DNA of 49,091 nt from an uncultured Phocaeicola sp. (GTDB lineage: Bacteria; Bacteroidota; Bacteroidia; Bacteroidales; Bacteroidaceae): contig CARCZS010000009.1 of NCBI GenBank assembly GCA_948956705.1, positions 37,586 through 86,676 on the forward strand, in the 5' to 3' direction. A model generated the notes under the pieces. It was given only the letters and a program-made list of their open reading frames with translations, searched no databases and was not told where the DNA came from. Numbering within the stretch: position 1 is the stretch's first letter; each line of letters begins with the position of its first letter. Position numbers and translations under genes: made by a program. Of this stretch, positions 24,274 through 26,162 are shown one piece after another.

Positions 24274-24357
24274 GCCCAGATGGCGGAATCGGTAGACGCG
24301 CTGGTCTCAAACACCAGTGGATTCACTTCCATCCCGGTTCGACCCCGGGTCTGGGTA
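24274..24357 (+). tRNA. tRNA-Leu (anticodon CAA)
   Basis: The sequence folds as a class II tRNA of 84 nt. The acceptor GCCCAGA pairs with TCTGGGT (with a G-T first pair). The anticodon stem CTGGT/ACCAG encloses the loop CTCAAAC, so the anticodon is CAA, which reads UUG. A long variable arm (TGG...CCA) and the T arm with GGTTCGA are present. The 3' CCA is not encoded (the sequence after the discriminator A is CGA). It has its own promoter and a strong terminator. Confidence 0.95.
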
Positions 24358-24364
24358 CGAAGAT

Positions 24365-24408
24365 AAAAGCTAAGTAATTGATAATTCAGTACTTAGCTTT
24401 TTGTTTTT
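24365..24408. terminator. Terminator shared by tRNA-Leu (+) and the Abi gene (-)
   Basis: A perfect 12-bp stem, AAAAGCTAAGTA (24365-24376) with 24390-24401, is followed by TTGTTTTTAT on plus and TTTTATCTTCG on minus. Confidence 0.85.
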
Positions 24409-24469
24409 ATCGGAGATGTTCCCAAATTGTTCCCAATCATCCTTATGTGTCTTATCAAAGATGGGGCAT

Positions 24470-25132
24470 TTACTTCATGCCATCTATTACCTTTAGTATA
24501 GAATCTGGCTTTTCTACCATTCGCAATACAGAATCCGAATCAAATCCCATATATTCTATATAGGTTCGTATTAACTCATAATGTTCTTTGGCATAACTTG
24601 TATCTATGATGCGTGTGGCGTTGAAACAGATAGGTTCATGATGTGCTATTCGGTTGCGAAATTCACGGATGGCAGTCAGTTGTTTGTAGATGTCTGTTTG
24701 CTTTAAACCATGGGCTTTGTTGGGGAATATTTGAAGAAGTGTTTTTCCTCCTATGCGGTAATTGCGTCTTGTAAACAGATAAGTCCAGAAACCAAATGTA
24801 AAGGAAGCTACCATCTTATCGTTGTTGTATACCCCCATATTGGTATAAGTGCGTTGTATGCGTACTATTTCGGAAGTTTCCTGTTCAAGCAATCCATTGG
24901 GTCTTGCTTGGTTGATAATCCAATTATCATCGTTGAAATATTGTTTGTAGTGAGCGTTTATGGCATTGCGTAGCATTATCTCAAACATACCGATAACCCC
25001 ATAAAAACGTTGGCTCAACTTGATGTTGTATTGGTATAGCCGCAAGGTCTTGGCTTTTTCATTGCCACTTGCTTGTGCGTATTTATTTAATCTTGCAGGG
25101 GATAGTACCTGCAAACATTCGTCATATTTCAT
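24470..25132 (-). CDS. Abi_2-family (AbiD/AbiF-like) abortive-infection protein with HEPN motif
   Basis: A soluble, mostly helical protein of 220 residues. The N-terminal part (YDECLQVLSPARLNKYAQASGN, then YQYNIKLSQRFYGVIGMFEIMLRNAIN) and the central FGFWTYLF resemble the Abi_2 family of phage-abortive-infection proteins. Near residue 160 the sequence AIREFRNRIAHHEPI carries the HEPN-RNase-type R-N-x3-H motif (R159-N160...H164). This suggests a ribonuclease toxin that cleaves host or phage RNA. It stands next to a tRNA gene, a common integration spot, and is divergent from a palindromic promoter that can also drive a short terminator-ended RNA (25199-25250). No second defence gene is adjacent. 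The family assignment is good; the defence function is inferred. Confidence 0.85.
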   Translation of the reverse strand: MKYDECLQVLSPARLNKYAQASGNEKAKTLRLYQYNIKLSQRFYGVIGMFEIMLRNAINAHYKQYFNDDNWIINQARPNGLLEQETSEIVRIQRTYTNMGVYNNDKMVASFTFGFWTYLFTRRNYRIGGKTLLQIFPNKAHGLKQTDIYKQLTAIREFRNRIAHHEPICFNATRIIDTSYAKEHYELIRTYIEYMGFDSDSVLRMVEKPDSILKVIDGMK

Positions 25133-25160
25133 TTGGTATAAGTTTAAAAACGGAACATCT

Positions 25161-25196
25161 CTTGCAAATATAGAAATTAATGCCTATATTTGCAAG
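25161..25196. promoter_or_regulatory. Palindromic divergent promoter: Abi gene (-) and small RNA (+)
   Basis: A perfect 12-bp inverted repeat (25161-25172 with 25185-25196, 12-bp spacer) contains TATATTTG on both strands: plus 25185-25192 and minus 25172-25165. Each is a full -7 element, and each arm supplies a TTG near the -33 position of the other. The minus promoter lies 32 bp upstream of the Abi start. The symmetry also makes it a natural repressor site. Confidence 0.65.
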
Positions 25197-25198
25197 CG

Positions 25199-25250
25199 TA
25201 AGACCCTGTTGTCCCTGCTGAACAAGCAAACTTCAGGGTTATTGTTTTTT
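25199..25250 (+). ncRNA. Candidate small RNA opposite the Abi gene
   Basis: The plus promoter at 25185-25192 should start transcription near 25199. About 50 nt later there is a terminator-like hairpin: ACCCTG (25203-25208) pairs with CAGGGT (25234-25239) around a 25-nt loop, which can itself pair weakly (TTGT with ACAA). It is followed by TATTGTTTTTT. No ORF fits in it. The product would be a 50-55 nt structured RNA. A structured RNA motif has been reported beside AbiF-type genes; whether this is the same class is not established here. Confidence 0.45.
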
Positions 25251-25261
25251 ATGTACCTATG

Positions 25262-25610
25262 ATAATGGCAGAATTTTGTTAGAGCCTGTCTCTCCGCAAT
25301 AAACGCTGAAAATCAGTAAATTGCAAAATAAACACCCAGTTTTACACCCAAGAATGTAAATTGGCCGTTTTTTGTATATTCTTAACTGTTGAAGTTTTCC
25401 CTGAGCTGTAATAGTTGTTTGTTACTTATCTAATTTATATGCTTACTCCTCCCCACTAAATTTCTACTGCCCCAGATTAAATTCTTCCGCCGGATCAAAT
25501 GTCTGCACGTTGAACCGGAAGCGATAGCGGGAGGTAGCGTTTGTCAAGAAAGGGAGACAAACTAATCCAATCACCTGGCACACAATATGACGGAGCCTGA
25601 CACAATGACA
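25262..25610. other. Gene-free spacer, no feature recognised
   Basis: There is no credible ORF on either strand. A short inverted repeat TTTACA/TGTAAA (25341-25346 with 25355-25360) is the only local structure noticed. Base composition changes along it, which suggests patchwork or decayed sequence between the Abi unit and the tandem arrays. Confidence 0.5.
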
Positions 25611-25615
25611 TATAT

Positions 25616-25771
25616 ACATGCAGGCTTATGCGTACGTCCGTGTAGCCCGATGCGTATATACGTGTAGGCTTATGCGTACGTCCGTGTAGCCCGATGCGTA
25701 TATACGTGTAGGCTTATGCGTACGTCCGTGTAGGCTTATGTCACCGTATGTGTGAAGTCTGATGCGTACAT
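25616..25771. repeat. Tandem array, ~22-bp units in alternating A/B pattern (44-bp higher-order unit)
   Basis: Seven consecutive units start at 25616, 25638, 25660, 25682, 25704, 25726 and 25748. Odd units read like ACGTGTAGGCTTATGCGTACGT and even ones like CCGTGTAGCCCGATGCGTATAT. Units 3 and 5 are identical and units 2 and 4 are identical, so a 44-bp pair is repeated. The last two units are degenerate. The array is rich in CGTAC, CGTATA and CGTGTA steps. It has no unique spacers, so it is not a CRISPR. Confidence 0.85.
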
Positions 25772-25806
25772 ACACATTTAAAAATAGGCAGCCCACACTG
25801 AATGTT

Positions 25807-25912
25807 GAAAAAAGACCTTTGTGTTTCCCAAAAAGCTCTTTATGTTTCCAAAAAACTTCAGCGCCTTTCCAAAAAACTTCACCATCTTTTTAAAAAAGCT
25901 CGGCATGTTTTT
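25807..25912. repeat. Degenerate 21-bp tandem array (five units)
   Basis: Five units begin at 25807, 25829, 25850, 25871 and 25892. Each has the shape A-run, (G/C)CTC or CTTC, about six variable bases, then TTTCC or TTTTT. The first unit is 22 bp, the rest 21 bp. Because 21 is a multiple of three, the plus frame encodes a seven-residue repeat (KALYVSK, KLQRLSK, KLHHLFK, KARHVFK) in a 107-codon frame at 25802-26125. That frame lacks a promoter or RBS and looks non-coding downstream of the repeats. Confidence 0.75.
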
Positions 25913-26162
25913 AAGGTAGGGGTAGATTACACCCCCTCACAAAGCTGCTCATTCCTTCTTCTCCGTTCATCCTTACATTTTAAATTTAACGCACTGACGA
26001 ACAGTTGGTTAAAGATGACAGGACATCCCCTCATCCTCCCTTCAGCCATGCTTTCCAAGTCCCTTCACAATCTGCCTTCAGCAATTTCCTTTTTGACGAA
26101 TGAAAGGAGGCTGAAAGGGTGGTGACGAGGTGTCCACTCACTACCGGTTCCCTTATCAACAG

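Follow-up and report, generated by a model that had tools for sequence, protein, structure and literature searches.

In the ToxIN group of type III toxin–antitoxin systems, a tandem-repeat RNA is the antitoxin of a toxin with the ToxN fold. Phage PhiTE carries a pseudo-ToxI RNA against ToxIN (PMC3475682). Closer to the present case, the RNA RCd22 neutralises AbiF_Cd through direct binding, and the work of Zilberzwige-Tal on AbiF and Cas13e is described alongside it and in a second article (PMC12373285; PMC12737573). Here we describe a locus in a 49,091-nucleotide stretch of DNA from an uncultured Phocaeicola sp. (the window), where the gene for an Abi_2/HEPN protein faces a short structured RNA. 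From comparison of the sequence with its homologues, the pair probably forms a two-component RNA–protein abortive-infection module, type III-like and of the AbiF type, in which the structured RNA probably holds the toxin-like Abi protein in check. The original prediction had already suggested that a toxin-like HEPN RNase and a small RNA, perhaps a Bacteroides variant, make up a type III toxin–antitoxin-like or RNA-guided unit around a symmetric palindromic promoter. The partnership is well supported by the conservation of the RNA, its covariation, the AbiF-like fold of the protein and the decay of toxin genes beside intact RNAs, but the palindromic promoter is not supported as the device that defines the system.

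The Abi gene lies on the minus strand at 24470-25132, and its open reading frame and profile matches indicate a 220-amino-acid, toxin-like ribonuclease of the AbiF/AbiD/PD-T4-5 group. The protein matches Pfam Abi_2 (PF07751) with 32.4 bits, above the cut-off of 25.6, as well as the PADLOC profiles PD-T4-5 (4.6e-13) and AbiD (2.6e-5), which have no curated cut-off. Its predicted active site is the HEPN R-N-x3-H motif (R159-N160-x3-H164; RNRIAH at residues 159-164), placed by codon count at 24641-24658 on the minus strand. This motif occurs once per chain and is invariant in all 27 aligned Abi homologues, bearing out the earlier assignment of a minus-strand Abi gene with R159 and H164. The PD-T4-5 profile matches each of the 27 aligned members, not necessarily as the best profile for every member, and the AbiD profile matches 20 of them. 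A fold match indicates that the 220-amino-acid protein has the PbAbiF fold in common. Sequence searches of the PDB gave no match to the small Abi profile at E values up to 10, and only unrelated ribosomal-protein matches to the single Abi sequence.

The RNA occupies approximately 25197-25250 on the plus strand, including its terminator. Covariance model R1 matches 25195-25251 with 66.9 bits, a score that is not independent, as this RNA itself was among the 51 rows used for the model. From the alignment, the core of the RNA (25204-25238, plus strand) comprises stem P1 (25204-25208 with 25234-25238), a GU/AC step (25211-25212 with 25230-25231), a CCC internal loop (25213-25215), and stem P2 (25216-25218 with 25226-25228). 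The plus-strand hairpin, followed by six T residues at 25245-25250, folds with -17.3 kcal/mol (z -3.3), and none of 200 shuffles was as good. To judge from the loci compared, the hairpin is more than chance, because homologous loci keep it. Two frames with TTG starts cross the region, one of 80 amino acids at 25020-25262 and one, seen by eye, of 17 codons from 25209 past the T-tract; a coding role is unlikely because the length varies among homologues and the base pairs compensate. The anticipated ~50-nucleotide region with a hairpin and T-tract is thus present, and the accompanying claim that it has no reading frame holds for practical purposes, given the TTG frames.

To build R1, 51 RNAs were aligned with MAFFT, with near-duplicates left out. 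Their consensus has five pairs in P1, the GU/AC step, an internal loop of CCC against one nucleotide, and three pairs in P2, and with two extra pairs included 90.0% of the cells are paired. Changes on both sides of a pair occur in 85 cells, compared with a shuffle mean of 29.7 (0 of 500 shuffles as high) and no more than 15 in slid controls, and the column pair 19-40 alternates between UA, CG, and GC; covarying pairs in homologous loci, proposed earlier as a check, are found. The number of pairs changed on both sides and the number of pair types were unremarkable against the same kind of control (70/500 and 219/500 shuffles, respectively), and 28 of the 51 sequences cannot form the two extra pairs (columns 16-43 and 17-42).

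Linkage between the RNA and the Abi gene was followed through 81 loci, 80 from a scan of genome contigs (80 of 343 relatives kept) and one from the viral IMG/VR contig L101, which carries RNA and Abi together. In 77 of these loci a matching stem-loop is no more than 143 bp away from Abi, so the hairpin is conserved beside homologous Abi genes, as the original prediction had asked. It is upstream and divergent in 72 cases and antiparallel at the 3′ end of the gene in five (L033, L034, L045-L047). Two tandem copies occur in L084 and one copy on each side of the gene in L044, while in L098 the RNA is 1.1 kb from Abi with a transposase-like reading frame in between. R1 has no match in three of the 81 loci: L068 and L074, where contig ends are near, and L092, where a longer look-alike hairpin is seen by eye. 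Two more distant viral loci lie outside this tally, L103 with 15.5 bits and L102 with no R1 match.

The RNA comes with its own promoter motif. TAnnTTTG stands at a near-constant spot before 69 of 80 RNAs, and before 54 of 55 in a subset that was picked by locus number (those up to L074, with L087 and L101) and is mostly Bacteroidales, where mononucleotide shuffles lead one to expect 2.45. In the window, the -7 box TATATTTG at 25185-25192 on the plus strand is the predicted RNA promoter, with nearly fixed spacing in homologues, and the same box at 25165-25172 on the minus strand is a candidate promoter for the Abi gene. The two facing boxes make up a palindrome at 25161-25196 with perfect 13-bp arms (25161-25173 and 25184-25196), set inside an 18-nucleotide arm pair that is 89% complementary; the repeat had been described as 12 bp long with a box on both strands, of which the boxes are confirmed and the length is corrected. 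The 13-bp inverted repeat is likewise present in L021, L023, and L025. Among 49 homologous gaps, 16 have the motif on the Abi strand and 6 have an inverted repeat of 10 bp or longer, so the conserved part is the RNA with its promoter and the palindrome is a local feature. These counts, together with the loci in which the RNA is 3′ of the gene, do not support the symmetric promoter as the defining device, and the palindrome was rejected as a conserved operator.

Many copies of the RNA are found without the toxin in bacterial genomes. The family and phylum searched are taken to be Bacteroidaceae and Bacteroidota, judging by kinship to the nearest genome and by relatives that bear names, among them P. 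vulgatus ATCC 8482 (L024), whose Abi is 98% identical and is accompanied by the RNA. Across 301 family genomes R1 matched 37 places in 30 genomes, and one locus from each was examined. Of these 30, the Abi gene beside the RNA looks intact in 14, is damaged or only a remnant in four (L159, L160, L173, L177), and is absent in 11, while one locus is cut by a contig end. Across 296 phylum genomes there were ten strong places (E < 1e-5), two with an intact-looking Abi gene, three with a damaged one (L110, L113, L126), and five with none; nine weaker places (0.008-0.04) were left out. We also checked 19 genomes (G521, G570, and the ones that carry toxin-less copies) for Abi genes of the A1 type, and found them absent genome-wide in 14; among the 10 genomes with a completeness of 90% or more, they are absent in 7. 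In L171 and L172 a pair of RNAs is arranged as in L165 and the Abi gene is absent, as if it had been deleted from the L165 layout. Stand-alone RNAs (L109, L111, L112, L115, L116, L169, L171, L172, L174-L176, L178-L181, L186) have among their neighbours AAA_15, YhcG/DUF1016, Schlafen-group helicase, RhuM, restriction-endonuclease-type, PIN, and helix-turn-helix genes, and by eye HEPN/MNT-like and HicA-like genes across L111, L115, and L112 and a RhuM-like gene in L116. Neighbours are shared by two RNAs with a Schlafen-group helicase (L176/L179) and two with a HEPN/MNT-like pair (L111/L115), and no defence neighbour was recognised in L109, L171, or L181.

Toxin-less copies also occur in phage contigs. 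A first pattern with 17 fixed bases, among them one of the ten P1 bases, retrieved 21 IMG/VR stretches (L222-L242), all of which match R1 at 41.1-59.6 bits. A second pattern with one P1 pair fixed retrieved 40 stretches, 13 of them already found and 27 new; seven of the new ones match R1 (L243, L245, L250, L252, L257, L260, L261) and 20 do not. Two other viral patterns gave no stretches, and another gave three, none matching R1. Neither the A1 profile nor PF07751 matched in the whole records of the 28 phage contigs (0/28 each), which may be fragments, none being rated at least 90% complete and the longest having 178,514 bases, so that absence is no proof. When 15 of the 28 phage copies are aligned with the window RNA, making 16 rows, 99.4% of the cells pair and 12 cells are changed on both sides, compared with a shuffle mean of 2.6; one P1 pair alternates between UA, GC, and CG.

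A tRNA-Met gene lies no more than 246 nucleotides upstream on the same strand in 14 of the 21 first-group contigs and abuts the RNA with zero gap in L234, L235, and L240. Eight proteins scanned from L230, L232, and L240 include tail sheath, DnaB-like helicase, and anti-repressor proteins. The nearest named phages to the L240 tail sheath are PhiPA3-like jumbo phages (~41% over half the protein), and relatives of this sheath occur on contigs as long as those of L228, L230, and L231. A search for the tail sheath in the 301 genomes of the nearest genome's family, run without a positive control, did not find it. Two further groups are apparent, L245/L252 and L243/L250/L257/L260/L261, whose phage nature is taken from IMG/VR alone; nearby reading frames look by eye recombinase-like in L245 and methyltransferase-like in L260. 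One 93-nucleotide phage query had no blastn match in INPHARED.

We favour, by a modest degree, the view that the RNA antitoxin is a currency of an arms race, with toxin-less copies in at least three phage groups serving as decoys against Abi_2/HEPN suicide and bacterial stand-alone copies serving as antidotes. In the jumbo-like phages, where the RNA sits behind and sometimes directly against tRNA-Met, tRNA 3′ processing would release it, and toxin-less copies in bacterial defence islands would make the cell immune to Abi cassettes that come in or have been lost. If this is true, phages carry an RNA-based anti-Abi family for a new branch of AbiF-type RNAs.

For the module itself, we infer the dimer, binding, inhibition, toxicity, trigger, and defence steps as follows. 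The 220-amino-acid HEPN protein would be a latent homodimeric ribonuclease, and a constitutive RNA of ~50 nucleotides would fold into a stem with a C-rich internal loop, bind the Abi protein, and block its RNase site. A phage that upsets the balance of RNA and protein would free the nuclease, and growth would stop. The RNA would act in trans and could work from an upstream divergent position, a downstream antiparallel position, or elsewhere, and stand-alone RNAs in cells and phages would be antidotes. The simplest account has the RNA working in trans as the antitoxin of a HEPN toxin: it outlasts toxin decay, is found in varied arrangements, and is present in phages where the toxin is not.

The window and its near relatives have two -7 boxes that face each other in a perfect 13-bp palindrome, which could instead mean that the stretch is a cis-acting regulator of the Abi gene only, either a palindromic operator or a divergent promoter with a terminator hairpin. 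We consider this extremely unlikely, given how rarely the repeat recurs in homologous gaps, the RNAs found 3′ of the gene or as a tandem pair, the distant RNA of L098 behind its transposase-like frame, and the RNAs without any Abi gene. It is also conceivable that the RNA does not inhibit the protein and is loaded into the HEPN dimer as a guide or activator, directing or licensing the cutting of phage RNA in the manner of a pre-Cas13 system; the PbAbiF fold would suit such a role. No variable guide segment is seen, however, in an RNA with a short loop and with promoter and terminator on either side, and there is no repeat array in 24300-25600. Damaged or lost toxins beside intact RNAs, together with the toxin-less phage copies, fit an antidote better, and we regard a guide role as unlikely.

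The stand-alone copies bear on a broader possibility, that the RNA belongs to defence islands or phages in general and works mainly with some other partner, Abi being one of several links. Schlafen-group helicase, RhuM, YhcG, AAA_15, restriction-type, PIN, and HEPN/MNT-like genes adjoin such copies, RhuM-family genes lie near three unrelated ones (L178, L201, L116), and phages carry the RNA as well. Against this, the RNA accompanies Abi in 77 of 81 loci, no partner other than RhuM recurs beyond one genus, three of the stand-alone copies have no recognised defence neighbour, and L171 and L172 look Abi-deleted relative to L165, which makes a general RNA of this kind very unlikely.

Several points nevertheless weigh against an RNA antitoxin of this Abi protein. 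The RNA may have other partners, many copies standing alone, and RhuM-family genes are found near RNAs without a recognised Abi gene in L116 (by eye), L178 (Pfam), and L201 (annotated, on a B. fragilis plasmid). The 80 scanned loci were drawn by two conserved peptide patterns and are hence close relatives, and matches of the 51 model-building RNAs to R1 are not independent. An unrestricted sample is looser: R1 matches 11 of 20 places from a plain protein search of 201 genomes, and the nine without a match comprise L017, which is a short fragment, and eight more distant copies with identities of 27-34% (L010-L016, L020). Sequence searches did not link the small Abi to PbAbiF, and the PD-T4-5 study, in the part available, mentions no RNA partner (PMC9519451). 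Finally, the abiF RNA of Rfam (RF03085), proposed at the outset as a motif to search for, is rejected as the identity of the window RNA, with no match in the window at E values up to 1 nor in 25100-25320 at E values up to 10; the RNA differs from that family.

The nearest genome (G001) aligns to the window up to 24407 (99%) and resumes at 25281 (95%), and the exchangeable cassette at 24408-25280 consists of Abi and RNA with no other recognised gene, because G001 matches both flanks and differs between them. In its place G001 has an insert of ~2.65 kb with Fic-like, ORF6N-like, and integrase-fragment reading frames, named by eye, in which the best R1 score is 10.2 bits. The cassette lies just 3′ of a plus-strand tRNA-Leu gene (24274-24357; its counterpart in L022-L024 was called with anticodon CAA), whose 3′ side (window 24274-24407; L200) is a cassette hot spot, with Abi and RNA here and Fic-like and ORF6N-like genes in G001. 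Plasmid-borne RNA with Abi occurs in Phocaeicola, Riemerella, Hymenobacter, and Chryseobacterium, and the B. fragilis plasmid (L201) carries the RNA without an annotated Abi gene, near RloB and RhuM genes. Elsewhere in the window, 25611-25753 holds a 44-bp tandem repeat (2.8 copies, 97%), and the stretch around it (~25530-26160) has dozens of partial copies throughout G001, mostly 68-89% identical.

In a set of Pseudomonadota or Cyanobacteriota plasmids, R1 had no match in the small-Abi loci L205, L207, L210, and L211 or in L218 and L221, with 14.7 bits in L209 and 10.0 bits in L219; a Methylobacterium plasmid (L220) has a weak, R1-like match of 25.7 bits. A B. faecis plasmid (L208) gives 21.8 bits on a terminator-like stretch. 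Hairpins lie divergently upstream of these more distant small Abi genes in L208 and L205 (a Shewanella plasmid) by eye, and in L220 as an R1-like match. Co-oriented hairpins with ACGCTTCCC...CAGCG or close variants lie upstream of AbiF in L127, L129, L131-L135, L137, L138, L140-L143, and L146; they are not matched by R1, nor by Rfam in the three tested (L127, L134, L138), and are possibly a further AbiF RNA type. RF03085 itself gave four matches over the 296 phylum genomes, one above the cut-off. An RNA at 1489-1546 of L106, beside a recombinase-like reading frame and with no Abi recognised, is weakly matched by both R1 (20.3 bits) and RF03085 (30.7 bits), and is a possible link between the two families.

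Of the described systems, AbiF-RCd22 and PbAbiF-AbiFr (RF03085, type III-like) share with this locus the Abi_2 domain, the HEPN motif, and the PbAbiF fold. The protein here has 220 amino acids, compared with a PbAbiF chain of 300 residues and a 343-amino-acid reading frame in its relative in L145, and there is usually one RNA copy, where RCd22 has two. In those systems the RNA is a co-oriented leader on the toxin mRNA, whereas here it is divergent or antiparallel at the 3′ end and has its own promoter motif. PD-T4-5 and AbiD, which are single-gene abortive-infection systems with Abi_2, are related through the profile matches to 27/27 and 20/27 members. ToxIN, CptIN, and TenpIN follow a like logic, with an RNA antitoxin for an endoribonuclease, abortive infection, and phage RNA mimics. 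In contrast to them, this locus has a HEPN toxin, a simple predicted stem-loop with a separate promoter, and no tandem repeat array, none crossing the window RNA and R1 matching once in the window; ToxN was not among the matches listed in the fold search, which excludes nothing. CRISPR-Cas13 (type VI), for which descent from AbiD/F has been proposed, likewise combines a HEPN RNase with a small structured RNA, but here there is one HEPN motif per chain, with no guide and no repeat-spacer array, and CRISPR-like repeats were rejected in 24300-25600. A search of the literature (titles and abstract openings, covering few subscription papers) returned nothing on this RNA or its phage copies. What the locus adds to the known AbiF-type toxin–RNA systems, which are thought to be the source of Cas13, is, as far as sequence comparison goes, an RNA family with strong covariation that no family in Rfam 15 matches. 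It indicates that toxin and RNA need not share one transcript, predicts phage-encoded RNA decoys, and prompts one to ask which role so many RNAs without a toxin play in defence islands.
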